Shown: positions 31,130 through 48,534 of the stretch, one piece after another
Numbering within the stretch: the stretch's first letter is position 1
How the letters are laid out: each line of letters opens with the position of its first letter
Assembly (NCBI GenBank): GCA_029245725.1
Contig: JAQWOT010000129.1
Location: forward strand, 1 to 51,439
Direction: 5' to 3'
Origin: SAR324 cluster bacterium
GTDB lineage: Bacteria > SAR324 > NAC60-12
Length of the DNA stretch: 51,439 nt
Program-made: the position numbers and the translations under genes
Notes under the pieces: generated by a model
What the model saw: the letters and a program-made list of their open reading frames with translations, nothing else
What the model was told of the DNA's origin: nothing
Database searches by the model: none

Positions 31130-32215
31130 TCAGTTGTAACCAAGTTCTTTCACACCATAAATTCCGCAAAGTCTGCTGAATTCTTCTTCCAGATAAGCTG
31201 GTATTGGAACTCCAAGCTCCGATCTTTCCTCTTTGACCCGCCACTCACGATCTCCAGGTGCCATAACAGCCATTCCTTCTTGTGCTGGTAAGGAACGCAG
31301 TTCCTGTAAATAGTTCTGCATCAATTCCATGAAAGTAGAACGAGAGACAAAAAGATCTGGCTTAAGAACCATGAAAAATTGGCCAAGATGCCTGGGGATT
31401 GACAAATCGTCAGAGTTCATCTTTAAGATTTGTGAGCAAAAAGGCATACCCGTTAGAGGTGAACAAAGCACTTCGATCATCCCACCCAGAGCTGCACCCT
31501 TGTAGCTATAGTCGTTGCCACCAAAGGAATTGAGCGCAACGGCTTCTTTGTGATTCTTCGTTGGTTGTCCGTTTTTATCGACGGCAATATCGTCAGGTAA
31601 TGGTCGTCCTTGAGCTTCATAATCGGCCACACGATTCCAAGGAACACAGCTTGTAGCCATGTCTATTAGGAATGGCGTATCATTGTCGACTGGGGCTGCG
31701 AATGCGATCGGGTTTGTACCATGGAAGGGCTTTTTCGATCCATGAGGCAAAACTAGAGTGTCAGTGTTGGAGAAACCAAAGGCAAGAAATCCCTCATTTG
31801 CAGCTTCTTCAACGTAACTACCAAGTGCTCCCAGATGTGAAGAGTGAATCACTGAAATCATACTGATTCCGTAAGTTTTGGCTTTTTGGATTCCCTCCTC
31901 AATCGCACGATAAGATGCATAATGTCCAAAGCCGTTGTTTGCATTGACCTCAACTGCGACTGGGGTTACTTCCCTCACTTCTAGTTGTGATTTTCCATTG
32001 ACCCGCCCTCCTCGAACAACCTTTTCATAGTGTGGTAATAATCGTACACCATGGCTATCCACACCTTTTATAGAGGCTGAGCAAAGAGTTTTGGCAACTG
32101 CTGAAGCGCTCTCACTTCGGGTTCCTGCTTTTTCCAGAACAGTTATCAGGAACTGGTTCAATTCCTCCACGGAGGAACGCTTCATTTGATTTTCCCAGTC
32201 TCGATTCTCGCTCAT
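31130..32215 (-). CDS. Malate/L-lactate dehydrogenase (LDH2) family oxidoreductase
   Basis: 361 residues. The family covers malate, L-sulfolactate, ureidoglycolate and 2,3-diketo-gulonate reductases, all NAD(P)-dependent and unlike classical LDH. Seen here: the catalytic region DSHGVRLLPHY, then HSSHLGALGSY, HGTNPIAFAAPV and FLIDMATSCVPW. It is the last gene of the catabolic operon, 16 bases after uxuB, so a role in processing a 2-keto or 2-hydroxy sugar acid from the imported sugar is likely. Diketogulonate or hexuronate-derived keto acids are candidates; the exact substrate is inference. Confidence 0.88.
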   Translation of the reverse strand: MSENRDWENQMKRSSVEELNQFLITVLEKAGTRSESASAVAKTLCSASIKGVDSHGVRLLPHYEKVVRGGRVNGKSQLEVREVTPVAVEVNANNGFGHYASYRAIEEGIQKAKTYGISMISVIHSSHLGALGSYVEEAANEGFLAFGFSNTDTLVLPHGSKKPFHGTNPIAFAAPVDNDTPFLIDMATSCVPWNRVADYEAQGRPLPDDIAVDKNGQPTKNHKEAVALNSFGGNDYSYKGAALGGMIEVLCSPLTGMPFCSQILKMNSDDLSIPRHLGQFFMVLKPDLFVSRSTFMELMQNYLQELRSLPAQEGMAVMAPGDREWRVKEERSELGVPIPAYLEEEFSRLCGIYGVKELGYN

Positions 32216-32231
32216 CGAATGTCTCTGTTGA

Positions 32232-33716
32232 TTAGGCTATTACCGTTTGCCGCAGCACTGAACGCACCCCATTCTCTGTTAGTTCTTGAAGGACTGAGGT
32301 AAGTTGCTGAGAGAATATAGTATTATTAGCTAGGTCGCTGCTGAAGATTTCCTCTATTTGCAGTAATTGATTTACGTATTCTGTAGTCTTTTCACTATTC
32401 AACTGACCATTAAGAAATCCAGACTCTTGGGCAAGCTGACGCAGCTTTGGAGTCAAGGGGTCCTGCACCTCAAAACTATTACCATTCTCCTGAATTCCCG
32501 TCACATAGCGCATCCAGCCTGCAATGGCGAGCAGGACCCTTTTTGGAAGTCGATTGGCAGCATGATGATCGCGGAGGGTACCTAATAATCTTTGAGGGAG
32601 CTTCTGGGAGCCATCCATCGCAATTTGATAGAGGCGATGATTGAGTTCTGGGTTTTGATAGCGTGCCATAAGGTCATGGGCATAGGCCTGAAGATCAATC
32701 CCTGCAGGCATACTGAGAGTTGGAATGATCTCATCCTGCCACATTCCAAGAAGGAGCTTTTGAAAATCAGAATCACTGGCGGCATCAGCAACAAACTCAT
32801 GGCCTGCCATGAAGCCTAAATAGGCCAGAGTCGAGTGTGTGCCATTAAGCATTCTTAATTTCATGTGCTCGAATGGTGTTACATCATCAACCATGGTTAC
32901 CCCGACTTCTTCCCAAGCCGGACGACCTTCACAAAAATTGTCCTCCAGGACCCATTGAGAAAAACTCTCAGTGACTACAGCTCCTTGATCTTCTAAGCCA
33001 AGCTGCTTTTGCACATTCTGATGATCTTTCTCTGTAGTCGCGGGTACGATCCGGTCAACCATTGAGCTTGGACAGGTAACGCGATCGTTGATCCAGTCTG
33101 CAAGTTCAGCATCACGAAGTTTTGCAAATTCGATGAGTAGTCCCCTCAGCACTTTGCCGTTGCTCGGCAGATTGTCACAACTAACAATGCTGAACGGACC
33201 CAAATCTTGTTTCCAACGCCGATTAAGTGCCTCACAAAGATAACCCAAGGCGGAGCTAGGTTGATTTGTGTTTTCGAGATCTGCTATCACTTGAGGGTGT
33301 TTCTGGTTTAAACGACCCGTAGCTGGATCGTGACAGTAGCCCTTTTCGGTGACTGTTAAGGAAACAACTTTGGTTTCTGGGTGACAAAGCCGATTGAGGG
33401 CAGCTGCTGGGTTCTCAGGAGCACAAAGTACCTCACGAACGGCTCCAATGACTTCCATACGCTGCCCGCAGCGGTCATTCTCCACCAGAGTGTATAATCC
33501 ATCTTGGGGAGCCAATTGATCTCGCACATTTGGGCTCCGAAGACTGATACCGGAGATGGACCAGTTTCCAGGGTATAGGCTCAGTAACTTGTCAGTATAC
33601 CAAGCTTGGTGAGCGCGATGAAATGCGCCGATACCAAGATGAACAATACCAATCCCACAGGATTCTCGAGGGTAGCGATTACCAAATTTTTCTTGCAGTG
33701 CTAATGCGCGACTCAT
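32232..33716 (-). CDS. uxuB: Fructuronate reductase / mannitol dehydrogenase family
   Basis: 494 residues. N-terminal NAD-binding segment IVHLGIGAFHRAHQAWYTD; catalytic and binding blocks SCDNLPSNGKVLRG, SMVDRIVPATT and MKLRMLNGTHSTLAYLG (Lys and His conserved) match the long-chain mannitol dehydrogenase family. Beside uxaC the expected reaction is D-fructuronate to D-mannonate with NADH. A mannitol or arabinitol dehydrogenase would be the alternative, but the neighbour argues against it. The start overlaps the uxaC stop by four bases. No mannonate dehydratase (uxuA) follows. Confidence 0.88.
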   Translation of the reverse strand: MSRALALQEKFGNRYPRESCGIGIVHLGIGAFHRAHQAWYTDKLLSLYPGNWSISGISLRSPNVRDQLAPQDGLYTLVENDRCGQRMEVIGAVREVLCAPENPAAALNRLCHPETKVVSLTVTEKGYCHDPATGRLNQKHPQVIADLENTNQPSSALGYLCEALNRRWKQDLGPFSIVSCDNLPSNGKVLRGLLIEFAKLRDAELADWINDRVTCPSSMVDRIVPATTEKDHQNVQKQLGLEDQGAVVTESFSQWVLEDNFCEGRPAWEEVGVTMVDDVTPFEHMKLRMLNGTHSTLAYLGFMAGHEFVADAASDSDFQKLLLGMWQDEIIPTLSMPAGIDLQAYAHDLMARYQNPELNHRLYQIAMDGSQKLPQRLLGTLRDHHAANRLPKRVLLAIAGWMRYVTGIQENGNSFEVQDPLTPKLRQLAQESGFLNGQLNSEKTTEYVNQLLQIEEIFSSDLANNTIFSQQLTSVLQELTENGVRSVLRQTVIA

Positions 33717-35143
33717 TTTTCCTCATTGAATCGATAAGCTTTCTTTACGAGCTGGTAGGCTAAATCAATTGCAACTTCCCTAGCTTCCTCTTCGCTCATT
33801 CGATGTTCACAGACGAGTTCTGCCAGATAGCGGCAGTCAATTCGTCGAGCTAAATCGTGTCTAGCAGGGATTGACATGAAAGCTCGGGTGTCATCATTGA
33901 AACCAACAGTGTTGTAAAAACCTGTGGTTTCGTTTGTTTGTCTACGGAAGCGTAACATCCCTTCTGGACTGTCATAGAACCACCAGGCAGGGCCTAGCTT
34001 GAGGATAGGATAGTGTCCAGCAAGTGGGGCTAACTCTCGGCTGTAGCTGGTCTCATCAAGGGTGAACAGAATCATGCTGAGTCGAGGTTCATTGCCAAAT
34101 TTGTTTAGTAGTGGTCTAAGCCCATTGACATAATCAGTCGTTATTGGGATATCCGCTCCTTTGTCACGACCAAAACGTTCGAAGAGCGGTTGATTATGAT
34201 TACGGAAGGATCCCGGATGCAACTGGACAACAAGGTCATCGTCCAGACTCATCCTCACCATTTCTGTGATCATTTGTCCGCGGAATTGGTCTGCTTCTAC
34301 AGCACTGAGATTCCTTGCTAGTGCTCCCGACAAAAGCCGCTCACATTCGGCTCGGGAAAGATCTGCTGTAGTTCCAGTTGGGTGCCCATGATCTGTGGAA
34401 GTAGCTCCCATCGACTTGAAAAATTCTCGTCGCTGTTGCAAGGCCTTCAGGTACCCATTCCAGGTATTAGCATTTTCTCCAGTAATTTCAGCCAACTTCC
34501 CAATATTTTCAGCAAAGCCCTCAAACTCAGGATCAACCACTGGATCTGGGCGGAATGCGGTAATGACATTACCCTGCCAGCCTGAATCTTTTATTGTTTG
34601 ATGGTGAGTCAGGGGATCAAGAGGAGATTCAGTTGTTGCCAAGATCTCGATTTGAAAGCGTTCGAACAAGGCACGCGGACGAAAGGCTTCGCTTGAGAGT
34701 TTTGCGTTCACTTCGTCATAAATTTGGTCGGCATTCTCCAGCAGCATGGGAACATTGATTCCTAGAACCTCATGCAGGGCGTGATCGAACCAAATCTTCG
34801 ACGGAGTCCCACGAAACAGATAATAATGTTCAGTAAATATTCGCCAAATTTTCCTGTGATCCATTTCTGTAGGTGAACTGTCACGAGTCGGAATTCCCAA
34901 GTCTGTTAGGGAAATCCCATGACTGTAGAGCATTCGGAATAGGTAGTGATCAGGAATCAGGAAGAGTTCTGTCGCATTACCAAAATTTTGGTTTAGAGCA
35001 AACCAACTTGGATCGGTATGACCATGTGGACTAACGATGGGGAGATCACGGACTTCCTCATAAAGTCTTCGCGCAACATTGCGTTGGGATGGATCTGAAC
35101 TGAACAGTCTATCTGGGTGATTAAATGGCGAATAGGGTTTCAT
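33713..35143 (-). CDS. uxaC: Uronate isomerase (glucuronate isomerase)
   Basis: 476 residues from MKPYSPFNHPDRLF, the E. coli length. The ATG at 35143 follows GGAG by eight bases; upstream starts at 35149 and 35239 are less likely. It interconverts D-glucuronate and D-fructuronate (or galacturonate and tagaturonate). The metal-binding amidohydrolase-like block SPHGHTDPSWFA is near the N-terminus, and IPDHYLFRMLYSHG and LHPGSFRNHN follow. Its neighbours are nagA upstream and uxuB downstream, which ties an amino-sugar pathway and a uronate pathway to one transcript. Confidence 0.93.
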   Translation of the reverse strand: MKPYSPFNHPDRLFSSDPSQRNVARRLYEEVRDLPIVSPHGHTDPSWFALNQNFGNATELFLIPDHYLFRMLYSHGISLTDLGIPTRDSSPTEMDHRKIWRIFTEHYYLFRGTPSKIWFDHALHEVLGINVPMLLENADQIYDEVNAKLSSEAFRPRALFERFQIEILATTESPLDPLTHHQTIKDSGWQGNVITAFRPDPVVDPEFEGFAENIGKLAEITGENANTWNGYLKALQQRREFFKSMGATSTDHGHPTGTTADLSRAECERLLSGALARNLSAVEADQFRGQMITEMVRMSLDDDLVVQLHPGSFRNHNQPLFERFGRDKGADIPITTDYVNGLRPLLNKFGNEPRLSMILFTLDETSYSRELAPLAGHYPILKLGPAWWFYDSPEGMLRFRRQTNETTGFYNTVGFNDDTRAFMSIPARHDLARRIDCRYLAELVCEHRMSEEEAREVAIDLAYQLVKKAYRFNEEK

Positions 35144-35187
35144 TAGCATCGCTCCATTTGAGTTTTTGTGTGTTTCCAGTTGTTTCT

Positions 35188-36312
35188 TCAATGAATTTTG
35201 ATGAACTGCGTGCCAAGTTGAACAGATGCTGGGCTCCAACGGTCATTGATGTATTCCCACTCCAACAATTCAGCAAGATCTCCAACATTTTGTGTGGTTG
35301 GCCAGCCCAATAGCTTTCTAGGTTGGATTGAGGTCCAGCGAATTCCTTGTTCAAGAGAGACGTTGTACCAACTTATGACATTTTGCAGACATTCCAGCAG
35401 AGTTGCTGCTGAACCAGCAAGATTCTGGGTTCCAAAGAGATGCACCACACCTTCAGGTTTGGATTGAATCTTTGTAGCGCCTAAAAAATAGATTCCAGGA
35501 ACTGCCCCAGAAGCTGCTGTTCCATCACTGACTAAGATGGTTCGGTCTGAACCCTTGGCTTTGATATAGACGCTCAGTACATGAGGTTTCTGATGAAAGC
35601 CATCCGCAATAAAACTAGCAGAAAGACCTTCCTCAGCAAGTTGGCTCAGAATCGGATTGTCAACTTTCGGTAATAACTGGGCAACCCCATTGCCCAAGTG
35701 TGTTGATAACGATGCCCCAGCATTCACTGCTTTTCGGATATCTTCATGCGAAGCGTTCGTATGACCGAGAGATACGCGGACTCCACTTTCAACACATTTG
35801 GCAATCAATTCAAGGACACCAGGCATCTCTGGAGCCACAGTCAGAAGCTTGATTCGACCTCCTGCTGCAGCTTGCCAACTCGCGAACTTTTCCCAAGATG
35901 GCTTTTCTCCCATGAACTGAGAAGGATGGCAACCTGCAAAACCTTGTGCTGGATTGAGAAAAGGTCCCTCTAGGTGATATCCCTGCACCATCATCTGTGC
36001 AATGGGAGAGAACGCCCGTGCCCTCTCTAATGCTTCAAAGTTTTGATGCAAATCTACTTGATCAGCAGTGATCAAAGTCGGAAGTACGTTGGTCACCCCA
36101 GTTTTCAGGAGAGCCTGCATCGATCGATGGAATTCTTCGGGGTTTAAGTCTGGATTGTTAAAATCAATGCCAGCAAAACCATTGAGCTGGATATCACACA
36201 ACCCAAGGGTTCTCTTTCTTTCAGATTGAACTGCACCATCAACAGTCTGAAGGGACTCTTTTAGAGTCCCTTGTTCATCGACGTGAATTTTTTGGTCAGC
36301 TGAAAAGAGCAT
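35188..36312 (-). CDS. nagA: N-acetylglucosamine-6-phosphate deacetylase
   Basis: 374 residues of the amidohydrolase superfamily. Metal and substrate motifs: YHLEGPFLNP (Glu and His), VSLGHTNAS, LSTHLGNG, and the catalytic Asp in LVSDGTAASG. The HLFN motif usual in NagA reads HLGN here, a small departure. It removes the acetyl group from GlcNAc-6-phosphate, giving glucosamine-6-phosphate for NagB, whose gene is 8 kb upstream in the same operon. Its substrate must be phosphorylated, yet no kinase or PTS is in the operon. Confidence 0.92.
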   Translation of the reverse strand: MLFSADQKIHVDEQGTLKESLQTVDGAVQSERKRTLGLCDIQLNGFAGIDFNNPDLNPEEFHRSMQALLKTGVTNVLPTLITADQVDLHQNFEALERARAFSPIAQMMVQGYHLEGPFLNPAQGFAGCHPSQFMGEKPSWEKFASWQAAAGGRIKLLTVAPEMPGVLELIAKCVESGVRVSLGHTNASHEDIRKAVNAGASLSTHLGNGVAQLLPKVDNPILSQLAEEGLSASFIADGFHQKPHVLSVYIKAKGSDRTILVSDGTAASGAVPGIYFLGATKIQSKPEGVVHLFGTQNLAGSAATLLECLQNVISWYNVSLEQGIRWTSIQPRKLLGWPTTQNVGDLAELLEWEYINDRWSPASVQLGTQFIKIH

Positions 36313-36325
36313 GTTTCTACTAGGA

Positions 36326-37390
36326 TCAGGTTGGCTGAGAGACTCCAGACAATGCTAACTCGGCTTGCCGATGACAGGCCACGAAGTGATTAGGTTGGAC
36401 TTCTTCCAAGTCTGGTGCTTTTTGCCGACACAAATCAGTGGCAAAGGGGCATCTGGGATGGAAATGGCAACCACTAGGGGGATTGGACGGACTGGGCACA
36501 TCTCCCTCCAAGGGTTGCATCTTTGAGCGAATTCTGGGATCAGCAACCGGTACGGCTGATAGCAAAGCCGCGGTGTAAGGGTGTTTTGGAGCCAGGAAAA
36601 GCTCATCTGTTGGAGACATTTCTACAATCCGGCCCACATACATTACGGCCACACGATCGCTAATGTGACGAACGACACTCAAATCATGCGCAACAAACAG
36701 GTAAGTCAGCTTCAACTGTTCCTGCAGATCCAGCAATAAATTGAGTACCTGGGCCTGTACTGAAACATCCAAAGCAGAGACTGGCTCATCGGCTACGACC
36801 AGTCGAGGATTTAGCGCCAGGGCGCGGGCAATCACGATTCTTTGCCGCTGACCTCCACTAAACGCATGTGGAAACCGACGCATATATTCTGGTCTCAGGC
36901 CCACAAGATGAAGCAGATCAGCGACTCGATCACTTCGTTCTTTGCGATTGGCGACACCGTTGACCAAAAGAGGCTCACCAACAAGATCAAGTAAGTTCAT
37001 TCGAGGATTGAGAGAGGCAAATGGATCTTGAAAGATCATCTGCATCTCCTTACGTAGTGCTCTCAGTTGGTCACTGGTTAGTTGTGTCACATCCACCAAC
37101 TGCCCATCAGCTTGACGATAACGGATTTCACCAGATGTTGGATTGATGGCACGTAGCAGACATCGGGAAGTGGTTGTTTTTCCACAGCCACTTTCACCCA
37201 CAAGCCCTAAGGTCTCTCCCTGGTTTAAATGAAATGTAACCCCATCAACAGATTTTACCTGGCCTACTACACTTTTAAAAACCCCCTTTCGGATAGGAAA
37301 ATATTTTTTTAGCTCCTTGACATCTAGCAAGCGCTCCGGAGGCATGAGTGTACTAGCAGTCAAAGTTGATGGGGTTGGTTCAGCTGACAT
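36326..37390 (-). CDS. ABC transporter ATP-binding subunit, OppF/DppF type
   Basis: 354 residues from the ATG at 37390, which follows AGGAGG; a start at 37405 adds five. Walker [13 protein letters not shown], signature [15 protein letters not shown], Walker [13 protein letters not shown] and the switch His in FVAHDLSV are all intact. The C-terminal [14 protein letters not shown] segment is typical of OppD/OppF and can bind an iron-sulfur cluster. It energises the import system together with the OppD-like neighbour, whose stop it overlaps. Confidence 0.93.
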
Positions 37391-38411
37391 TGACCTCCTC
37401 TTCATGAAGGAAGCAACTCACTGATTGGTGTTCGTTGATCACTTTGAGTACTGGTGCTTGATTGGAACACTTCTGTTGCGGGAGAGCCTCTTGGCAACGG
37501 GCCACAAACGGACAACCTGTACGTTTCTGAAATGGGTGAGGAATTGATCCTGAGATCGTTGGTAGACGACTGCGATTATTTGTGTAGACGGTTGGGATAG
37601 ATCTAAGTAGAGCCCGCGTGTAGGGATGTTGGGGATTATGAAAAATTTGATCAACTGGGCCACTCTCCATCACCTTTCCTAGATACATCACCACGACATC
37701 ATCAGCGAGTTGGGCGATCACTCCAAGGTCACGGGTGATGAAGATAATTGATGTCTGATGCTCCTGTTGTAGCTTGCGCAGTAGGCTCAGCACTTGAGCC
37801 TGTGTGGTGACATCAATGGCAGTGGTGGGTTCATCAGCTATAAGGAGCAGTGGATCGCAGGTAAGAGCCATTCCAATCATCGCACGTTGACGAAGCCCGC
37901 CACTAAGTTCCCAAGAATAGCGATTCATTGCGCTTTCTGGATTTGGAACTCCAACTTCTTTGAGACGATTCACAGCAATCTTTTTCGCTTCTTCATCACT
38001 GCCGGGTTGATGGAGTTGAATCACCTCTATCAATTGATTGCCAATGGTATGCACTGGACTGAATGCAGCCATTGGTTCTTGGGGAATCAGGGCGATCTCA
38101 TTCCCTCGCAAGGCCCGAAGTTGAGCACTCTTAGCCGGTAACTGAACAAGATCAACCATTTCATCAGAGGAATTACCCAGAATTTTTGACCGAAAGCGAA
38201 TGGCACCGTTTGCAATTCTGCCAGGTTTTTCGATCAAACGTAGGACTGACTTGATCGTGACACTTTTGCCGCAGCCACTTTCACCAACAATACCGAGAAC
38301 TCTCCCTGGATACACATCAAAGCTGACTCCATCAACCGCTTTGACAGATCCCTCATCAAGCTCAAAAACAGTCTGCAGATCGCGGACTTCTAGCAGAGGC
38401 TGATTTGTCAT
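37380..38411 (-). CDS. ABC transporter ATP-binding subunit, OppD/DppD type
   Basis: 343 residues from the ATG at 38411. Walker [13 protein letters not shown], the signature [13 protein letters not shown], Walker [14 protein letters not shown], and C-terminal [13 protein letters not shown] with Cys residues. In the switch region the usual His reads Arg (FITRDLGV rather than FITHDLGV). That His helps ATP hydrolysis, so this site may be degenerate and the OppF-like partner may carry most of the hydrolysis. The other motifs are intact. It sits between permease C and OppF in the operon. Confidence 0.92.
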
Positions 38412-38419
38412 TTGTATTC

Positions 38420-39553
38420 TCAACTATAAGGATCTGCGGCATCACGCAAGCCATCCCCCAGGATGTTGAGCGCAAGAACGGTAAAGATGACAGCCAAGCC
38501 AGGAAGCAACAACCAAGGAGCCAGGGCAATCGACTGAAGATTCTGTGCTTCTTGTAAGAGTACACCCCAACTGATAGCAGGCGGACGCAAACCGAGACCT
38601 AAGAAGCTCAAAAATGTTTCGTTAATGATCATTACAGGAATAGCCAGAGTACTGGTGGCAATGATGTGACTGGTGAAGGTGGGTAGCATATGTCGGAAGA
38701 TGATTCGACTTTGGCTGCACCCGGAAAGTTTTGCGGCCATGACGAAGTCTTCTTCTCTCAATGACAAAAACCTACCACGAACCTCCCTCCCTAGTGTTGT
38801 CCAGCCCAACAGTGAGAGGATTAGCGTGATCGCAAAGTAAGTCTGCTCTACCGTCCAGTCTCTGGGCAAGGCTGCAGTCAAGGCCATCCAGATGGGAATA
38901 GGTGGCAGTGATTGAAGGATCTCGATCAACCTTTGAATGACTAAGTCGGGCCAGCCTCCGTAATATCCTGATATTCCACCGAGCAGGATTCCAAGAAAAA
39001 TACTTAGCCCAACTGCGACCAGCCCGATTGAAAGTGAAACTCTGGTTCCATGCATAAGTCGAGACCATTGATCTCGGCCTAGACGATCGGTACCCAGCAG
39101 GTGAAACGAATTTCGAGCGGATGGTTTTTCAACACCAAAGAGGTGTAGATCTGTTTTGAAAAGCCCAAAGACCTCGTATTCATAACCACTTGTCAAGAAA
39201 TGAAGAGGTAAAATTCTCTTCTCATCGACACCCCATTCCATCTTGAGTGTTGTCTTATTCCGTTTCCCTTTAAGTGGTTTAACATGGATTTGGAAACTTC
39301 CATCATGGAAAAAGGATATCCCCTGAGGCGGCATGAAAGATTCACGAGCACTCGATTTGTTGGGATCTTGAATACTGAAGAAATCTGGAAACAGAGCAAT
39401 CAGAATGATTCCAAGCAACACAAATGCACTGACTAAAGCTAACCGATGCTTCTTAAAACGCCACCAGATAAGCTTCCAATTAGGAGCTAAGTCAAAGGCC
39501 TCATCCTTGACCGTTTCGTTGACTTCATTGCTCAAGGTGATTTGAGAAGTCAT
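38420..39553 (-). CDS. ABC transporter permease, OppC/DppC type with large periplasmic insert
   Basis: 377 residues. An N-terminal helix (LALVSAFVLLGIILIALF) is followed by an insert of about 110 residues (roughly 60-165, Lys/Gly/Phe-rich) before GTDRLGRDQWSRLMHG and five more helices. The EAA loop is GREVRGRFLSLREEDFVMAAKLSG. The insert is longer than in standard OppC; a similar extension occurs in YejE-like and oligosaccharide-type members. It pairs with the OppB-type permease, but the sulfatase gene sits between them. Confidence 0.92.
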   Translation of the reverse strand: MTSQITLSNEVNETVKDEAFDLAPNWKLIWWRFKKHRLALVSAFVLLGIILIALFPDFFSIQDPNKSSARESFMPPQGISFFHDGSFQIHVKPLKGKRNKTTLKMEWGVDEKRILPLHFLTSGYEYEVFGLFKTDLHLFGVEKPSARNSFHLLGTDRLGRDQWSRLMHGTRVSLSIGLVAVGLSIFLGILLGGISGYYGGWPDLVIQRLIEILQSLPPIPIWMALTAALPRDWTVEQTYFAITLILSLLGWTTLGREVRGRFLSLREEDFVMAAKLSGCSQSRIIFRHMLPTFTSHIIATSTLAIPVMIINETFLSFLGLGLRPPAISWGVLLQEAQNLQSIALAPWLLLPGLAVIFTVLALNILGDGLRDAADPYS

Positions 39554-39575: not shown

Positions 39576-41078
39576 TCATACAGGCATCCCCGCTTTGCCC
39601 CAATTGGCCTTCATTTCGTTAGGTTTTTCCCAGGTATTGGCTGGATAGAGACGCTGCCAATTTCTATGATGCCCAGCATGATCTGGAGTAAGTGTCATGT
39701 AGGGATATGATTTTTCTTGATGACCCTGAACCAGACCCTCCATCAACGATTTGGTTAACTCTGCTTCCATGTGGTTGCGGATATCATCAAAATCAGGATC
39801 AAGAAGTAGGTTGTTTTGTTCGAGGGGGTCCGCTTCCATATCAAATAAAGTACTGAGTCCATTTTTGTAGCGTGATAATTTCCAACGCTCTTCAAACCAC
39901 ATTAGCCCAGCACCTGTAGCTCCAAACAGGTTTTTACGAGCCTGCTGCTCAGGCTTTGTGGAGATTACCTGGGAGTCCTGAGCTATCATATTTATTCCCG
40001 CATGACTGAGGATTGTTGCGTATAGATCTGTCAACGAAACCAAGCTCTTGGATTGTCCAACCTGATAGGGTGTTCCTTTCGCAATCAGCGGTATACGAGA
40101 AGAGGATTCGTAAAATAAAGCCTTACCAACCATGTCGAAGTCACCGAGAAAATCACCATGATCTGATGTGAAGAAGATTAGTGTCTCACGCTCAGAATTC
40201 TGCTCTTCTATAGCACTTAAAATTTGTCCGACTTGGTGATCAATGATCTGAACCAAACCTGCATAGTGTCGTCGAATGGTCTGTTTGGCTAATTCTGGAA
40301 ACTCTCGAAAATCTGCTTGAGCTGATCCAGTGAGGTGGGCTTGAATAAACCCCTTTTGAAAGTTCTGACTGTCTGCGGTTCCAGGAATTGAAAAGGGAAA
40401 CTCTTCTGCCGGACGCATGTAATCAAGAATTTCTGAGGGTGGGTTGTAAGGATCATGTGGTCCTGGGAAAGCCACCCACAGAAAGTATGGTCTATCCTGG
40501 CGGAAATCCTTGATAAACTCCACACTCCGATCTCCAACCCAAACGTCCACTTGGTGTTCCAATGGGATTGGGTTGACGGAAGCCATTCGGCCCGCTCGGT
40601 AGCCAGGTTCTTCTGTGCCAGCAAGCTTCCGAAGATCTCGTGCTGCCAAATAATCAGCGTAGTCATCCTGAATATGGATATGGCGCTTGTCTTCAGCAAT
40701 CCAACGATGACTGAATCCCTCCTCTTGGTCCCAGGGAATGAAGTGCATCTTGCCGATGCCTTCATTATGATAGCCATTTTCTAAAAGGGCGTTGGTAAAA
40801 CTGAGAAGACCACAATCTTCATGGTCTGGGCGCAGCCAGTAGTTGTTCGTTAATACTCCAGTTGAGAGGGCGTTGTGTCCTGTGAGTAGAGATGCCCTAG
40901 CTGGAATGCAGATTGGGGAGGGAGATAAGGCCCGGTTGAATTGTAACCCTTGTTGGGCAAGCATATCGATATTGGGAGTTTGAACGAATTTGCTGCCGTA
41001 GCATCCAAGAAAATCAGGCCTGAGTTGATCCGGCATGATCAAAACAATATTGGGTTTGTTTTCTAGCTTTTGTGACAT
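39576..41078 (-). CDS. Cytoplasmic type I sulfatase (formylglycine-dependent)
   Basis: 500 residues of the arylsulfatase/alkaline-phosphatase fold. The formylglycine motif C-x-P-x-R is PICIPARASLLTG with Cys57, so a maturase (FGE or anSME) must exist elsewhere. Metal ligands are visible in IMPDQLRPD (Asp17) and TSDHGDFLGDFD. The sequence starts MSQKLENKPNIVLIMP with no signal peptide, unlike most GAG and algal polysaccharide sulfatases, which are periplasmic. It lies between the two permease genes, two and 22 bases from them. Together these say the sulfate ester is removed after import. The sulfated sugar (uronate 2-sulfate, hexosamine 6-sulfate or another) cannot be told. Confidence 0.9.
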   Translation of the reverse strand: MSQKLENKPNIVLIMPDQLRPDFLGCYGSKFVQTPNIDMLAQQGLQFNRALSPSPICIPARASLLTGHNALSTGVLTNNYWLRPDHEDCGLLSFTNALLENGYHNEGIGKMHFIPWDQEEGFSHRWIAEDKRHIHIQDDYADYLAARDLRKLAGTEEPGYRAGRMASVNPIPLEHQVDVWVGDRSVEFIKDFRQDRPYFLWVAFPGPHDPYNPPSEILDYMRPAEEFPFSIPGTADSQNFQKGFIQAHLTGSAQADFREFPELAKQTIRRHYAGLVQIIDHQVGQILSAIEEQNSERETLIFFTSDHGDFLGDFDMVGKALFYESSSRIPLIAKGTPYQVGQSKSLVSLTDLYATILSHAGINMIAQDSQVISTKPEQQARKNLFGATGAGLMWFEERWKLSRYKNGLSTLFDMEADPLEQNNLLLDPDFDDIRNHMEAELTKSLMEGLVQGHQEKSYPYMTLTPDHAGHHRNWQRLYPANTWEKPNEMKANWGKAGMPV

Positions 41079-41079
41079 T

Positions 41080-42069
41080 TTACTCCTCGTCCAGTCGAAT
41101 TCTGGGATCCAGCCAAGCCAAGAGAATGTCAGAAATCAATGTGCCAACCACTGCTAGCATCATGTAGAAGAGAATGATTGTGCCTGCCAGAAACATATCC
41201 TGGCTGATCAGAGCCCTAAGCAACATAGGGCCTATGGTGGGCAAATTCATTACCGTTGCGACAATTACACTTCCAGAAAAGATAAGAGGTAGATACCAAC
41301 CAATCGTACTTATCAGGGGGTTCATTGCTAAACGGACAGGATATTTCATGACGAGATGCCACTCGGAGAGACCCTTGGCTCGTGCCATCTCCATGTACGG
41401 TTTTTTTAGCTCGTCGAGTAAGTTGGCCCGCATAACTCTGGCAAGACGGGCAGTTCCATCCAACCCAAGAATGACAACGGGAAGCCATAAGTGCTGCAAC
41501 AAATCTACGACTCGATCCCAACTCCAGGGAGCATCGATGTACTCTGCTGAGAAAAGTCCTGTGACGCTCACACCATAGTATTTAAAGGCTATCCACATCA
41601 GGACTAAAGCCGTCATGAAAGTTGGAGTGGCAACACCGAAGTAATTAAAAACAGTGAAGAAGTAATCAAAAAAAGAGTACTTGCGTGTGGCTGAGAAAAT
41701 TCCAATCGGGATCGCAATCAACCATGTAAATACAAAAGTCCCCAAGCCAAGGGCGAGGGTGAGCCCCATGCGTTCACCGATTAGTTCACTAATGGGACGT
41801 TGCCAATCCAATGATACTCCCAGGTCTCCAGTCAGGATTCTTCCCATCCATTTGAAATATTGGAGGTACATGGGCTGATCAAGGCCATAGAGCGCACGCA
41901 ACGCATCAATCTGGGCCCTTTCCATCGAGGATCCCGATGCTGCCAATTCAGCAATATAGCTGGTTAGAAAGTCACCAGGAGGAGCTTGGATCAAGAGGAA
42001 GGCGATGACAGAAAAGATCAGTAGCAGGAACGGCAACAGCAGGAGCCGCTTGATGATATAGATTAACAT
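41080..42069 (-). CDS. ABC transporter permease, OppB/DppB type
   Basis: 329 residues with six membrane helices. Typical start MLIYIIKRLLLLPFLLLIFS; then APPGDFLTSYIAEL, GDLGVSLDWQRPISELIGER and the EAA loop LARVMRANLLDELKKPYMEMARAKGLSEW. Forms the inner-membrane channel with the OppC-type subunit. It is one base upstream of the sulfatase gene and 73 bases downstream of the solute-binding protein gene, with a hairpin in that gap. Confidence 0.94.
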   Translation of the reverse strand: MLIYIIKRLLLLPFLLLIFSVIAFLLIQAPPGDFLTSYIAELAASGSSMERAQIDALRALYGLDQPMYLQYFKWMGRILTGDLGVSLDWQRPISELIGERMGLTLALGLGTFVFTWLIAIPIGIFSATRKYSFFDYFFTVFNYFGVATPTFMTALVLMWIAFKYYGVSVTGLFSAEYIDAPWSWDRVVDLLQHLWLPVVILGLDGTARLARVMRANLLDELKKPYMEMARAKGLSEWHLVMKYPVRLAMNPLISTIGWYLPLIFSGSVIVATVMNLPTIGPMLLRALISQDMFLAGTIILFYMMLAVVGTLISDILLAWLDPRIRLDEE

Positions 42070-42142: not shown

Positions 42143-44053
42143 TCAGCGTGAATAGAAATACTGTTCGAGACGGGTATCTCCTGGAGTACGCAGAGGCCAA
42201 TCGTTTCCAGCAACGGCTGGAACATTGCGCAGCTTATCATTCGCAACTAGAACTCCCTGAATCATTGGGGTCATCCCAACGGTTCCAATTTCCCAGACAT
42301 TATCAGCCCAGATTTGGAAGAGTTCTTTGGCCAGGGCGATTTGCCGATTACGTCCAGAAGTTTTGGCTTCATCAATGATGTCGACCAAGCGCTTGATTTC
42401 AGCAGGTGGAGCTTGTCCTTCCTTACCGCCGGATGCATACCACTTGGCAACTAAGGGTGCAAAGGTCAAAGCTGGATCACTTCGGGGATCAAACTTGGGT
42501 TGACCACTGAAAGGGAAGCCCGTGGTGTCTTCGTTCCAGACTTCTGACATCAACTCATTGGCTGGGCGCATCGAGAAGTGTTGAGCTCGCTCACGAACTT
42601 CCACATGTGCTTTGACTCCGACTTCTGCCCAATTCTCCACAATCAATTGTGCGATATCTGTCCAAGCACCAAATTGAGGGACCACCCCAATTTCAATGTC
42701 AAGTACCTGTCCATTGGACATAAGACGATGTCCATCGCTGTTTTTGTTTGGAAGAACTTTATCCAACATTGCCGAAGATTCTTCTGGATTGAACTCGGTA
42801 TAGCGGAAGGCGTATTCATCTCCAGGGTAGTAAGGGTGGAAGGGAGCAGGGACTCCTTGACGAGCTTCACCAAGGCCGAAGAATGCTAGCTCCTTGATGG
42901 CATCTCGATCAATTGCGTGAGAAAGCGCGATGCGGAAGTTCTTATTGCGGAAGTATTCACCTTCAGGGCCTATCCACGTTTGGTTCAGCATCACAACTGC
43001 ATCTGAGCCTCCAAAGGTTGGCCAGGTAACCACACGATAGTTTGCGTTGTTCTCGTTTTCTTTGAGAACAGGATAACTACTCATGTTGATGTGACGCCCC
43101 TGAAAATCAATCTCACCAGCAACTGCTGCAAGGTTCAAAGCTTCCTTGTCCGCAAAGAAGGTAAAGCGGATTTCGTCAATATAGGGCAGTTGGTTGCCCT
43201 GTGGATCGACTCCCACGAAATACGGATTACGTTTGATCGTGAAGACCTGGTCCGAAACAGTTGTTCCATCTGGAACCCAAGCCGCCATGCCTGGTCGATT
43301 ACCGCTCAAATGCGGGAGTGCTTCCACCGCGAATAGTTGGGTCCAAGTATCAAAACCTGCTGCTTTTACCTTGGCATCCAAGCTAGCCTTGCTGGTATGG
43401 TCAGGATGGAATTGCTTCAAATAATGAGCTGGAACAAATACTAGATTGCTGATCGATTTGTCAGCACCATCCAGGTTCGCCATATTTAGCAGGAAGGCTG
43501 TGTTTGGCTGCTTGTAAGTCCACTTGACCAAGTAGTCCGAAAGCTTTTGGACTGAGGCCAATGAACCATCTCCGTTTTTCATCCAGCCAACACCACCGGG
43601 CATTAGTTCTTGGTTCATCAAAATATTGTCGTACCAGAACATAATGTCATCAGCGTTGAATGGAGTGCCGTCTGACCATTTAGCGCCTGGCCTGAGGCGA
43701 ATAATCCATTCTGTGAAGTTTTCGTTAGATTCCCAACCTGCTGCGATATGAGGAACAATCTGGCTTCCGTCTGGTGCATAACGAACTAGTGCGTCGTAGA
43801 CGGCTCTTGTGTAGTTGTTGTGGTCACCTGGACCAAGGAACGCACGACGGAGTGTGCCACCGTATTGACCAATTTCGTCAACAACAGGCAGCATCAATGG
43901 AATCTCAGGGAGACGCTCATTCAATGGTGGCAATGTCCCGGCTTTGACCATTGCTTCGAGATCGGGGGATTCCCCTGCAATTACTCCTGTGCTCCCAATG
44001 ATTGTAGAAAATCCAAGAGCAACGAGAGATTTGAGAAAAGTAGATCGTTTCAT
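42143..44053 (-). CDS. Periplasmic solute-binding protein, family 5 (oligosaccharide-type Opp)
   Basis: 636 residues with a signal peptide (MKRSTFLKSLVALGFSTIIG). Family-5 blocks: GTLPPLNERLPEIPLMLPVV, IRLRPGAKWSDGTPFNADDI, and LSHAIDRDAIKELAFFGLGE. The opening, with a short KAGTLPPLNERLP segment, resembles the larger members of this family that bind oligosaccharides (for example alpha-galactosides in Sinorhizobium, chitin oligosaccharides in Vibrio) rather than peptides. This fits the catabolic genes around it. AGAGGAC precedes the ATG by five bases, and an inverted repeat is just upstream. Confidence 0.9.
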   Translation of the reverse strand: MKRSTFLKSLVALGFSTIIGSTGVIAGESPDLEAMVKAGTLPPLNERLPEIPLMLPVVDEIGQYGGTLRRAFLGPGDHNNYTRAVYDALVRYAPDGSQIVPHIAAGWESNENFTEWIIRLRPGAKWSDGTPFNADDIMFWYDNILMNQELMPGGVGWMKNGDGSLASVQKLSDYLVKWTYKQPNTAFLLNMANLDGADKSISNLVFVPAHYLKQFHPDHTSKASLDAKVKAAGFDTWTQLFAVEALPHLSGNRPGMAAWVPDGTTVSDQVFTIKRNPYFVGVDPQGNQLPYIDEIRFTFFADKEALNLAAVAGEIDFQGRHINMSSYPVLKENENNANYRVVTWPTFGGSDAVVMLNQTWIGPEGEYFRNKNFRIALSHAIDRDAIKELAFFGLGEARQGVPAPFHPYYPGDEYAFRYTEFNPEESSAMLDKVLPNKNSDGHRLMSNGQVLDIEIGVVPQFGAWTDIAQLIVENWAEVGVKAHVEVRERAQHFSMRPANELMSEVWNEDTTGFPFSGQPKFDPRSDPALTFAPLVAKWYASGGKEGQAPPAEIKRLVDIIDEAKTSGRNRQIALAKELFQIWADNVWEIGTVGMTPMIQGVLVANDKLRNVPAVAGNDWPLRTPGDTRLEQYFYSR

Positions 44054-44176: not shown

Positions 44177-44953
44177 TTAGAGTAGCGAAGCTGAATCTTG
44201 GTCCAGCAACAAGGTAGCATGTGAGACTGTTCTCAGGATGGAGCCTGGCCTAGATTCATCCACCGGCTCAGAAAGACAGGCCTTTACTGCCGAAGCCTTC
44301 CTCGCTTCAGGAACAATACAAAGGATGTGTACTGGAGACAGAAGGGCAGGAATTGTCAAGGTAATCGCTTGTTTTGGTACTTCATCCAGTGAATTAAAAT
44401 GCCCTTCACCGACCTGCTGAAGCTGACTTTCTTCTGCTAGATCGACGATTTTTACCCAATGTGGGTCATCAAAATGTGCATCTGGGGGATCGTTGAAGGC
44501 GATATGCCCGTTTTCTCCCCACCCCATTGCGACAAGATCAGCAGGATGTTGACGAATCAATGCCTCATAGGCCTTGCAGGCGGAATCCACATCCGCAGGC
44601 TCACTCGGAATCGGATGAAAATGACCAGGATTCGTAAATTGAAGAAAATGGTTTTCTAAGAACAGAGGGAAACTGGCTGGGTGTGATGGATTGATTCCAA
44701 TGTACTCATCCATGTGGAAGATTCTGACCTTCTGCCAATCAACATCCCCCAAACTTCTCAAAGCTTTTAGAAAAGTTAGTTGAGAATTCCCAGTTGCCAA
44801 TATCAAGTTAGCGAATCCTTTTTTGTCAATTGTCTCCCTCAAGATTTGTTGAGCTTTATTTGCCGCTGCCTGTCCGAGTTCTTCGTTACTAGCGTACAAT
44901 TCAACAGGTAGTTGGTCTACGAGCCATCGTTTTTGAGGATCAGGTGTAGTCAT
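44177..44953 (-). CDS. nagB: Glucosamine-6-phosphate deaminase
   Basis: 258 residues of the sugar isomerase/deaminase fold. Active-site blocks: LATGNSQLTFLKAL, IFHMDEYIGINPSHPASF (Asp-Glu), and MGWGENGHIAFNDPP with the catalytic His. It converts glucosamine-6-phosphate to fructose-6-phosphate and ammonia. GGAG lies seven bases before the start, which overlaps the AGE gene stop by four bases. With nagA it completes the entry of GlcNAc-6-phosphate into glycolysis. Confidence 0.93.
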   Translation of the reverse strand: MTTPDPQKRWLVDQLPVELYASNEELGQAAANKAQQILRETIDKKGFANLILATGNSQLTFLKALRSLGDVDWQKVRIFHMDEYIGINPSHPASFPLFLENHFLQFTNPGHFHPIPSEPADVDSACKAYEALIRQHPADLVAMGWGENGHIAFNDPPDAHFDDPHWVKIVDLAEESQLQQVGEGHFNSLDEVPKQAITLTIPALLSPVHILCIVPEARKASAVKACLSEPVDESRPGSILRTVSHATLLLDQDSASLL

Positions 44954-46149
44954 GTTGTTTCTCCAAGTTCATCAAGGATTTGAATTGAATAAATTAGGGC
45001 TCTGGGCAAATGAAAAGGATCCTTCACTGGAAGAGTTTGTAAATAGGGAGTTGTCGGTTTTCCCGCCCGATCGAGATTGTGAAACCATTCACCTGAATCC
45101 CAATTGGGAAAGTGAGTGAAGCTGTAATCATGAATTTTCCAGTACCAATCCTCAGCCCATTTTTCTCTGGTATGAGCGTAAGCCATCAGCAGAGCTTGTA
45201 GACTCTCAGTGTGGGGCCACCATATTTTACCATGCGGATTGTGCCACTTGGGCTTCCCATCTCCAAGATGAGTGGCAAGAACTAAACCTCCAAATTGTTG
45301 GTCCCAGCCGATCTCCAGATGTGTCCGAATGGTTTCCAGTAATAGCGGAATTTTTTCTGAGAGGCCGTGGTAACGGTAGATCTCTTCCAAAAACCACATG
45401 CTTTCCACCACATGCCCTGGAATCGTTGTCTGCCCAATATCACTTGAATCTTTTTGACCACCAGAAACAACGAACTCATGAAGTTGGCCGGACTCAGGAT
45501 CAAGATGTTGAGATAGAATCCTTTCTGCCAATTCAAGGGCTCGCTGCTTAATGTCATCTCTGCCACTCAGGATTCCCAGTTCATGAAACACATGTGCAAA
45601 CAACATCAGGGGGCCATGGGACTGGAATCCAGTTGGAATTGGGTGAGGCATTGTCCTTACTAGGCGATGATCCTCCAACTTGGGACTCGCGTGGGTGTAA
45701 GCCTCCAAAGCTATGTCTAGACTCTTTGAGTGACCGGTTGCTTTCGCATATTCTGTCAGCCCATAGATACAGAAACCATCTACATAGATAGATTGAGATT
45801 CTCTTGCAGGGGTACCGTCTGCGTTTAAACTAAAGTGCCAATCTCTGTCAGTGTTCCTCCCATAATCTGTTAATAATTTTGAGATAGGAGTTGCCATCTC
45901 CAGCCATTTATAGTCCTGATCAATGTCATTAAAAAGTTTACTCAACACCCAAAGAGCTCGGCCTTGTGACCAAAGATATTTTTCGGTGGAGAGGACTTCA
46001 CCATCATCCTGAACACAATTGTTTAAGCCCCCGTATTTCTGATCAATCAGTTTCGGAAACCAGAATGTGAGAACATGCTCAGTGAGATGTTGGTGCAAAA
46101 ATTTTCTGAGCTCAGGCCAACTGAGACGAATTCCAGTGGTTGGTCTCAT
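44950..46149 (-). CDS. AGE family epimerase/isomerase (N-acylglucosamine 2-epimerase-like)
   Basis: 399 residues, an (alpha/alpha)6-barrel. Family blocks: FWFPKLIDQKYGGLNNCVQDDG, KYLWSQGRALWVLSKLF, PGHVVESMWFLEEIY, and PHGKIWWPHTESLQALLMAY (catalytic His/Glu). Members interconvert GlcNAc/ManNAc, mannose/fructose, or cellobiose forms. With nagA and nagB beside it, epimerising an N-acyl-hexosamine, perhaps ManNAc to GlcNAc, is the natural guess, but mannose isomerase cannot be excluded. It is coupled to both neighbours by ATGA overlaps. Confidence 0.85.
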   Translation of the reverse strand: MRPTTGIRLSWPELRKFLHQHLTEHVLTFWFPKLIDQKYGGLNNCVQDDGEVLSTEKYLWSQGRALWVLSKLFNDIDQDYKWLEMATPISKLLTDYGRNTDRDWHFSLNADGTPARESQSIYVDGFCIYGLTEYAKATGHSKSLDIALEAYTHASPKLEDHRLVRTMPHPIPTGFQSHGPLMLFAHVFHELGILSGRDDIKQRALELAERILSQHLDPESGQLHEFVVSGGQKDSSDIGQTTIPGHVVESMWFLEEIYRYHGLSEKIPLLLETIRTHLEIGWDQQFGGLVLATHLGDGKPKWHNPHGKIWWPHTESLQALLMAYAHTREKWAEDWYWKIHDYSFTHFPNWDSGEWFHNLDRAGKPTTPYLQTLPVKDPFHLPRALIYSIQILDELGETT

Positions 46150-46997
46150 ATTGTTTCAGGTATTAGTTTGAGAAGAGCTGAAGGGATTTTTCGATCAACC
46201 TTATCACCCATAAAATCAACATCTCCACTTTCACTAAATCTTTTCAGCCCAACCATTTTGATAAGAGTGTCATCCACTTGCTCTAGAGGAGTATATTGGG
46301 GATGTCTAGAAGTTTTGAACGGATTATTACGTGCAGCGTTGTAGCAACAAATCATCGCCCAGCGAGGATCAGGAGAGTGGTTTTGACCCGAGCAATGCAG
46401 AAGATTGCAGTGAAAAAGCAATGTGTCGCCAGGTTCTAATTCTACAGCGACTCTGTCGAAGCGTTCTACAGCGATCTCTACTCTTTCAGGGTCTGCGCCG
46501 GATTGCTCTCCAGCTAAGGAATGATCGAGGCGGCCTAGAATATGACTTCCTTTCAGAACTTCGAGACAACCGTTGCTCACTTTGGCAGGATCCACCGCAA
46601 TCATAGCGCTCGTCATGAGAGGTTGGAGGCATCCATAGTGATACCAATAACCATAATCTTGATGCCATTCCCAAGCTCCTCCAATTTTAGGATCTTTGAG
46701 GATCATCTTTGAATGGTAATGGTAGACCTCTCCACCCAGCAGCTCTTCCATTCTGCCTACAAGCTTTTTGCACCGGGCAAACATTCCATAAATTCCATCT
46801 CCTGGATGATTCCAGAGTGTAAGACGGACTTTGGCACCTGACCTGTCTTTTCTTCCTTGGCTTCGAAGATCCAATTCCTGATCATCTTTGGCAGTTTTCT
46901 GAAGTAGTTGGATTTCATCGGAATCGAAAAGGTTTCTTTCGATCAGAAATCCATTTTGTTCAAAATCTAACAGTTGTGTTTGAGTCAGAAGTGGCAT
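46146..46997 (-). CDS. Phytanoyl-CoA dioxygenase (PhyH) family oxygenase
   Basis: 283 residues from MPLLTQTQLL at 46997; an upstream TTG at 47066 lies in the regulator gene and is unlikely. A non-haem Fe(II)/2-oxoglutarate oxygenase: the iron site HxD is in EWHQDYGYWY, the distal His in LLFHCNLLHCSGQN, and the 2-oxoglutarate Arg in DPRWAMICCYNAARNNPF. All three sites are intact, so it should be active. PhyH homologues hydroxylate many small molecules. Inside a sugar operon it may act on a modified sugar (O-methyl, O-alkyl or sulfate ester), which is speculation. No signal peptide. Confidence 0.9.
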   Translation of the reverse strand: MPLLTQTQLLDFEQNGFLIERNLFDSDEIQLLQKTAKDDQELDLRSQGRKDRSGAKVRLTLWNHPGDGIYGMFARCKKLVGRMEELLGGEVYHYHSKMILKDPKIGGAWEWHQDYGYWYHYGCLQPLMTSAMIAVDPAKVSNGCLEVLKGSHILGRLDHSLAGEQSGADPERVEIAVERFDRVAVELEPGDTLLFHCNLLHCSGQNHSPDPRWAMICCYNAARNNPFKTSRHPQYTPLEQVDDTLIKMVGLKRFSESGDVDFMGDKVDRKIPSALLKLIPETI

Positions 46998-47022
46998 TTG
47001 TAAGTTTTTTTTAAACGACAAG

Positions 47023-47730
47023 TTACTGAATAAAATACTCTGAATGTTCTGTTCGAATTCGCTCAATATCCGAAAAAATCACGCTGAGGTGATCTTGGAT
47101 GGCTCTCACAGCTTCATCTGGTTGGTGCTGAATTATACAATCAACAACCCGTTGATGTTCATCAGCAATTTCGTAAATCCTTTCTGGGAGCGGAAGGGTT
47201 AAGTGCCGAACACGGTCCATGTGGGATTTTGCGATGTTTGTGATTTTCCAGAGTCTGTTTTGGAAGCGGAACTCTGCAATTGTTTTATGAAAGAGTTCAT
47301 CCAATTCGAATAAAAGATTTTTATCAGCAGTGCCTAAAGAATCATTGAACTCTTGAAGACGAGTGTTCAGTTGCTTATGTAATTGGGAATGACCCTGCTG
47401 TGCCGCAAATCGGACCGTGGCGCTTTCCATGGCTTCACGAATGAAATGACTCTCACGGACTTCTTCCATACTAATTTTGGAAATACGTGTCCCAGATTGA
47501 GGATAGATCTCGACAAGGCCTTCTTTCTCCAGTTGCAACAGTGCTTCTCGAATTGGTGTACGGGAAACCTCCATTTGTTCACTCAGATCTTTCTCGCGGA
47601 TGGGGGAACCCGGTGGAATCTCACAATGAACAATCAAGTGATGTAGAGTTGAGTGGACTTGGGGTACGATAGGTAAGCGACGATTAATACAGATCGTCTC
47701 AGTATCAGATTTTTGTGGAAGAATACCCAT
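47023..47730 (-). CDS. GntR family transcriptional regulator, FadR/FCD subgroup
   Basis: 235 residues. The winged helix runs about 24-85 (SPIREKDLSEQMEVSRTPIR, then ALLQLEKEGLVEI). The helical FCD effector domain carries a metal site: DELFHKTIAE, SHMDRVRHL, DEHQRVVDCI and IQDHLSVIF supply Asp and three or four His. Related FCD regulators (UxuR, ExuR) respond to hexuronates, fitting the uxaC-uxuB genes downstream. It is the promoter-proximal gene of the operon, so it probably also regulates itself. Confidence 0.93.
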   Translation of the reverse strand: MGILPQKSDTETICINRRLPIVPQVHSTLHHLIVHCEIPPGSPIREKDLSEQMEVSRTPIREALLQLEKEGLVEIYPQSGTRISKISMEEVRESHFIREAMESATVRFAAQQGHSQLHKQLNTRLQEFNDSLGTADKNLLFELDELFHKTIAEFRFQNRLWKITNIAKSHMDRVRHLTLPLPERIYEIADEHQRVVDCIIQHQPDEAVRAIQDHLSVIFSDIERIRTEHSEYFIQ

Positions 47731-47856: not shown

Positions 47857-48534
47857 TTAGTTCCTAAAGTGTTGGAAAAAGTTTTTGTTCAAAAAGAAAA
47901 ATGTCTGATTTTGATGGTGAATCTCAAGACCTTCTGGTCTGTTGAAAAATTCAATCAATCGATCATTAATAGTCAACGTCGCATTTTCATTGTTATAAAA
48001 TTTAAGTTGTCCATTGATCTCTTGAATAAAATCATTGTCAATTGAAACTTGGTTAAAATGGAATTTGAAATCAAAAAACCTAAATCGGGTAAATAGTCGT
48101 TGAAAAACATCACTATCAAAATAAAATTTTTTAGAGTAAGTGATATGCTTATTTTGATTAAACATTAAATTTTTAGAATTTGCTGTAAATTTTCTGCAAT
48201 CAAGATCTAAAAGTAGATATATTAAACTTAATTTAAAAATACATTCATCGAAAACCATTCTTTTTGTCAAATTTAGAATATGAGATTTTTCATGCATTGG
48301 AATTTCAATGATAAATTTATTAAAATTTAGGGAGAGATTTAAAATATCTGAAGAGTAACCTTCAGCAAATAACTTAGGTTCATTTGGGCCCCAATCCATT
48401 GAAAGATTTCTTTCAATATTTTGTTTTACTTGAATATTGAACGTTTCAACGTTTTCTTTAAGGTAAATAAAACAAATACAAAACAAAAAAATTAAAAATA
48501 ATATTATATAGATAAAAATTGATTTTCTTCTCAT
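47857..48534 (-). CDS. AT-rich membrane-anchored protein of unknown function
   Basis: 225 residues. One N-terminal hydrophobic segment (FIYIILFLIFLFCICFIYL) is followed by a Lys/Asn/Phe/Ile-rich soluble part with no domain I recognise; it contains several Cys and HxxxK patches. The base composition is far more AT-rich than the neighbouring operon, as in the adjacent membrane protein gene. Its ATG directly follows the upstream gene's stop (no gap), so the two are cotranscribed. The frame is long and continuous in AT-rich DNA, which favours a real gene. Confidence 0.65.
   Translation of the reverse strand: MRRKSIFIYIILFLIFLFCICFIYLKENVETFNIQVKQNIERNLSMDWGPNEPKLFAEGYSSDILNLSLNFNKFIIEIPMHEKSHILNLTKRMVFDECIFKLSLIYLLLDLDCRKFTANSKNLMFNQNKHITYSKKFYFDSDVFQRLFTRFRFFDFKFHFNQVSIDNDFIQEINGQLKFYNNENATLTINDRLIEFFNRPEGLEIHHQNQTFFFLNKNFFQHFRN

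Follow-up and report, generated by a model that had tools for sequence, protein, structure and literature searches.

A leaderless sulfatase encoded within an Opp-type uptake operon of a SAR324 bacterium, and its probable role in desulfating imported sugars

The window analysed here, a 51,439-nucleotide stretch of DNA, is one whole contig (C129) of a SAR324 cluster bacterium whose genome assembly comprises 4.4 Mb and is 99.3% complete. It contains a tightly packed array of 14 genes on the minus strand, running from 47730 to 31130. In the order of the array, these genes, together with one ribosome-binding site, are:

47023..47730, minus strand: GntR-FCD transcriptional regulator (PF00392, PF07729)
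46146..47066, minus strand: PhyH-type Fe(II)/2-oxoglutarate oxygenase (PF05721; PDB matches 7dt0 and EctD)
44950..46149, minus strand: N-acylglucosamine 2-epimerase-like protein (PF07221; best PDB matches the GlcNAc 2-epimerases 6f04 and 2gz6)
44177..44953, minus strand: NagB-like glucosamine-6-phosphate deaminase (PF01182; best PDB match NagB, 2bkv)
42143..44053, minus strand: family 5 solute-binding protein (SBP) with an export leader (PF00496)
41080..42069, minus strand: OppB-type ABC permease (PF00528, PF19300)
41083..41088, minus strand: likely ribosome-binding site GAGGAG of the sulfatase gene, within the end of oppB (GAGGAGTAAA-ATG)
39576..41078, minus strand: leaderless type I (Cys-type, S1) sulfatase of 500 amino acids, CIPAR motif with Cys57 (PF00884)
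38420..39553, minus strand: OppC-type ABC permease (PF00528, PF12911)
37380..38423, minus strand: OppD-type ABC ATPase (Walker A, LSGG signature; 4-base overlap with OppC)
36326..37405, minus strand: OppF-type ABC ATPase (Walker A, LSGGQ-type signature; overlap with OppD)
35188..36312, minus strand: NagA-like N-acetylglucosamine-6-phosphate deacetylase (TIGR00221; PDB 3egj)
33713..35239, minus strand: UxaC glucuronate isomerase (NF002794, 564.8 bits, over the cut-off of 387)
32232..33716, minus strand: fructuronate reductase, UxuB-like (NF011611, PF01232, PF08125)
31130..32215, minus strand: Ldh_2-family dehydrogenase, the last gene of the array (PF02615)

The sulfatase gene and oppB together span 39576-42069. 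As an earlier note on this DNA had described, the sulfatase lies between the two permease genes, with gaps of 1 base to oppB and 22 bases to oppC. Several of the sugar enzymes score below the cut-offs of their families: the NagB-like protein (TIGR00502, 131 bits against 236.9), the NagA-like protein (TIGR00221, 198.8 against 225.65), the fructuronate reductase (best family NF011611, 468 against 603) and, likewise with its best family, the epimerase-like protein. An Asn in NagB that might be taken for a substitution of Asp is shared with Bacillus NagB, and we do not count it as a change. The hexuronate branch (31130-33716) has UxaC and fructuronate reductase without a mannonate dehydratase (UxuA), and ends instead with the Ldh_2-family dehydrogenase. 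For the PhyH oxygenase gene, the true start probably lies downstream of the TTG. Two adjacent open reading frames of 225 and 480 amino acids at 47857-49977, upstream of the GntR gene, have no Pfam match; the larger has many membrane segments.

The sulfatase begins MSQKLENKPNIVLIMPDQ and carries the motif C57-I-P-A-R61. It matches PF00884 with 143.5 bits against a cut-off of 25, and thus has the Sulfatase domain of type I sulfatases. Only nine residues precede the first catalytic strand. The AlphaFold model (pLDDT 84, pTM 0.88) places strand 1 at residues 10-14 and shows no N-terminal extension. Upstream of the ATG, the frame is open over just 19 codons (FLTFSWLGWIPEFDWTRSK), which include no in-frame ATG, GTG or TTG and encode no signal-peptide-like or hydrophobic leader. 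This rules out an upstream start that would supply one, and the earlier claim that the protein lacks a signal peptide is borne out. Further, the likely ribosome-binding site sits 4 nt ahead of the ATG, and same-genus relatives have GAAGAG (locus L024) or GAGGAG (L026) as their ribosome site. The operon's solute-binding protein does have an export leader, MKRSTFLKSLVALGFSTIIGSTGVIAGE.

The active site is intact, as had also been claimed for the C-x-P-x-R motif. All eight aligned members of the ortholog group share the type I catalytic set of D17, Q18, C57, R61, K110, H112, H208, D306, H307 and K319. Seven further residues (W81, R83, H86, W116, E129, H133 and H175) are invariant in the group and, judging from this conservation, likely form the sugar pocket. 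The gene is under purifying selection, looser than that on OppB, with a dN/dS of 0.10-0.15 against two same-genus relatives, compared with 0.012 for OppB. No viral relatives were found.

Orthologs are 87-90% identical to the sulfatase within the same genus, 58-59% in other SAR324, 56% in Granulosicoccus, 53-54% in Rhodobacteraceae and 45% in Geminicoccaceae. The next full-length relatives outside this group reach at most 33% identity, and the orthologs at 45-90% constitute one discrete group of sulfatases. In each locus complete enough to judge, representing at least four lineages, an Opp transporter is encoded near the ortholog, in varied arrangements. In SAR324, the sulfatase gene is flanked by oppB and oppC; in Granulosicoccus, it follows PhyH and precedes nagB; in Geminicoccaceae, it lies immediately upstream of oppB; and in Rhodobacteraceae, it is on the opposite strand beside the Opp cluster. 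That the pair has persisted despite this reshuffling is an argument for the sulfatase acting on the cargo of the transporter. The binding proteins of the Rhodobacteraceae and Geminicoccaceae loci are about 33% identical to that of the window. NagA, NagB and UxaC are absent from the Rhodobacteraceae sulfatase loci, which carry enolase-superfamily and SMP-30 genes and, in one locus, a DHDPS-family gene. One ortholog (genome G022, L027 6580-8079) has an in-frame TGA near its C-terminus, past which homology continues; this is either a sequencing error or a recent truncation. Another ortholog (L030) is carried by the culturable Oceaniglobus trochenteri G4.

The absence of a leader extends well beyond this gene. 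Signal peptides were called with a home-made rule rather than SignalP, allowing any in-frame start within 70 codons. No leader was detected in any ortholog examined. The earlier note had taken exported sulfatases as the norm among marine bacteria. This holds for Flavobacterium sp. UMI-01 (leaders in 21/21 sulfatases) and Pelagicoccus sp. SDUM812005 (15/15), but not for the host genome, where all 11 CxPxR sulfatases are leaderless, nor for its family, where 34 of the 36 sampled are leaderless, although many of these 36 are orthologs from sister species, such that the counts are not independent. The few Alphaproteobacteria sulfatases sampled are mostly leaderless, and a review describes Cys-type bacterial sulfatases as typically cytosolic (PMC3920027). 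Consequently, the idea that a leaderless sulfatase is an exception does not survive: in the host genome and its family it is the rule. In Lysobacter, the rule for calling leaders overlooked some that are likely of the Tat or lipoprotein type, and unusual leaders can therefore be under-called; where no more than about 1-11 residues stand ahead of the first strand, however, there is no room for a leader to be missed. Genome G012 accounts for both family members that do have a clear signal peptide (L112 and L173), which were possibly acquired or mis-binned.

Proximity to transporters is less general. A motif and phmmer screen found ABC-transporter genes within 5 kb of 6 of the 11 host-genome sulfatases, compared with none of the 36 from Flavobacterium and Pelagicoccus. 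Such genes are absent at 26 of the 36 family sulfatases, and it is only partly true that SAR324 sulfatases are generally encoded near ABC-transporter genes. Other leaderless sulfatases of the host genome are encoded on contigs C332, C345, C163, C404, C101, C271 and C320 (L104-L108, L110, L111), and several adjoin ABC-transporter, GntR or other sugar-acid genes.

We consider it likely that this is the cytoplasmic sulfatase of a sugar-uptake operon, and that a sulfated sugar is imported intact and desulfated in the cytosol. The lack of a leader and of any alternative start, together with the Opp link conserved in at least four lineages, makes this the best reading of the locus, in agreement with what had been proposed before. 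In this scheme, the periplasmic family 5 binding protein would capture a sulfated sugar or short oligosaccharide of N-acetylhexosamine and/or hexuronate, and OppBCDF would bring it in with the sulfate still attached. An FGly-type sulfatase would then take the sulfate off in the cytosol. NagA and NagB would pass the amino sugar, and UxaC and fructuronate reductase the hexuronate, to central metabolism. Sulfate release inside the cell, which the earlier note had regarded as an additional sulfur source, follows from this model. Sulfate is plentiful in seawater, and the gain of carbon and nitrogen is therefore a likelier benefit than that of sulfur.

Gene content suggests a cargo with an amino sugar and/or a hexuronate, and our best guess is a sulfated hexosamine, alone or joined to glucuronate. 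That the Opp importer carries a sugar at all is suggested by the nearest solved relatives of its binding protein, namely 5ipw, the pectin binder SPH1118 (7ver), and binders of alpha-galactosides and chitin oligosaccharides. Among solved sulfatases, the best profile match is BT1918 (7oz8, S1_46; 4.8e-53), which removes the 3-O-sulfate from 3S,6S-GlcNAc (PMC10154612). This match would fit an amino-sugar operon, but BT1918 is a periplasmic Bacteroides enzyme, and at the 27% identity of the fold match specificity can be neither read nor transferred. The operon has no glycosidase, lyase or GlcNAc kinase genes, which counts against the model of import and desulfation, as it provides no enzyme to cleave an oligosaccharide or to phosphorylate GlcNAc. 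Unsaturated disaccharides released from glycosaminoglycans (GAGs) by lyases are an unlikely cargo, given that the host genome has no GH88 and that the uronate genes suit saturated glucuronate.

An alternative is that the enzyme is a phosphonate monoester hydrolase (PMH) or phosphodiesterase, freeing a phosphate- or phosphonate-linked group, not sulfate, from the imported sugar. PMHs have the same Cys motif and fold (2w8s and 2vqr, TM about 0.72), and H307, the fourth metal ligand of the SAR324 enzyme, also occurs in PMHs, SpAS2 and EfAS, where classical arylsulfatases have Asn (PMC12421950). The GntR regulator has a weak, below-cut-off phnR-like match. Of 11 active-site residues, SmCS and SpAS1 share 9 with RlPMH and differ from it at two (PMC5870055). 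Against this, the best profile and fold matches are sulfatases (7oz8, 9koq, choline sulfatase and SpAS1), the sulfatase-type residues K110 and H112 are invariant in the ortholog group, and the operon contains sugar genes and no phosphonate genes. On balance, we regard phosphonate or phosphodiester hydrolysis as unlikely.

The enzyme could instead be a general scavenger of small sulfate esters, encoded beside a transporter whose own substrate is unsulfated. Arylsulfatases and choline sulfatases of this branch do take small esters (PMC5870055, PMC6189696), yet sulfatase and Opp genes co-localise repeatedly across arrangements and lineages. Further, identification as a choline sulfatase (BetC) was rejected, as TIGR03417 gives 182.3 bits, far under its cut-off of 433.45. 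Sulfate is also plentiful in seawater, and we consider scavenging very unlikely. Export to the periplasm without a classical leader, with desulfation before transport, is highly improbable. A leaderless gene does not strictly preclude other kinds of export, and those Bacteroides glycan sulfatases that have been characterised are mostly periplasmic (PMC10154612). Nevertheless, orthologs uniformly lack a leader while the binding protein of the operon has an ordinary one, leaderless sulfatases occur across the lineage, and the structural model starts without an extension.

Cytosolic desulfation after import is a known strategy. In Streptobacillus moniliformis, an ABC transporter imports sulfated GAG disaccharides unmodified, and the sulfatase is predicted to be cytoplasmic (PMC5430744). 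That cluster (sulfatase Smon0126, importer Smon0120-0123) resembles the SAR324 operon in its combination of such a sulfatase with an ABC importer and in a substrate of uronate and amino sugar. It differs in its importer, annotated as aldouronate/multiple-sugar type rather than Opp, and in having lyases, GH88 and KduI/KduD, where the SAR324 operon has UxaC and fructuronate reductase for saturated glucuronate. The SAR324 operon may thus work like the S. moniliformis GAG cluster, but we do not class it as one because it encodes neither polysaccharide lyase nor GH88, the latter being absent from the whole genome. Bifidobacterium breve UCC2003 likewise has intracellular sulfatases for GlcNAc-6-sulfate, clustered for use of the sulfated amino sugar, according to the account in PMC7326374 (citing Egan et al. 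2014, 2016); it is a Gram-positive gut bacterium, and the passages of that source concerning it mention no hexuronate genes. The SAR324 operon is probably a further case of this known kind, which differs from the precedents in transporter family and uronate route and comes from a new lineage.

Other characterised proteins resemble single components of the operon. SpAS1 and SpAS2 of Silicibacter pomeroyi, EfAS of Enterococcus faecium and the choline sulfatase SmCS belong, as does the SAR324 enzyme, to the Cys-type arylsulfatase/choline-sulfatase branch, and share its fold and catalytic set. They act on aryl sulfates or choline sulfate, and the parts of their descriptions consulted link none of them to a sugar-importer operon. 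SPH1118 of Sphingomonas sp. A1, which ranks second among the solved proteins matched by the SBP of the operon, is an Opp-family binder of an acidic uronate polymer (PMC7055323). Its ligand is pectin, not a sulfated amino sugar or glucuronate, and the section of that paper dealing with it describes no sulfatase.

The operon points to a way of handling organic sulfate in SAR324, an uncultured lineage abundant in the ocean: esters would be imported whole and desulfated in the cytosol. This contrasts with polymer-degrading Bacteroidota and Verrucomicrobiota, which export their sulfatases. If true, both sugar and sulfate would stay inside the cell, pointing to small sulfated sugars released by others as the resource.

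Cys57 is predicted to be converted to FGly, and the earlier note had proposed looking for an FGE or anSME gene elsewhere in the genome. The search yielded neither, which also counts against the model: the 99%-complete host genome has no match to anSME (TIGR03942) or to a SPASM domain, and its seven matches to the FGE-sulfatase domain PF03781 (L016-L022) all lack the paired cysteines of FGE. One of these, L019, is cut by a contig end, and its same-genus counterparts (L215 and L216) are also without the pair. Across genomes, the FGE motif pattern occurred in 0 of 39 from the lineage versus 7 of 12 others, with no matches in the reversed control. Three relatives (G006, G031 and G035) have an anSME above the cut-off. 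The maturase gene may have been lost from these draft genomes, have diverged, or have been replaced by another system. FGly formation by machinery not yet identified occurs in E. coli, and a choline sulfatase left unmodified retains slow turnover (PMC6189696). We speculate, as a rather doubtful extension, that the SAR324 lineage combines cytosolic Cys-type sulfatases (11 here) with whole import of sulfated sugars and, lacking FGE and anSME, with a different FGly-forming system. As no known sulfatase-maturing enzyme was found, these genomes form a defined set in which to test whether a third maturation system exists, a long-standing question.

PhyH-type oxygenase genes adjoin leaderless sulfatases repeatedly, at 46146-47066 in the window, on contig C271 of the host genome (L110, near 4332-5930) and in Granulosicoccus (L029, 7117-7923). 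This recurrence may point to oxidation of the sugar that the sulfatase acts on.
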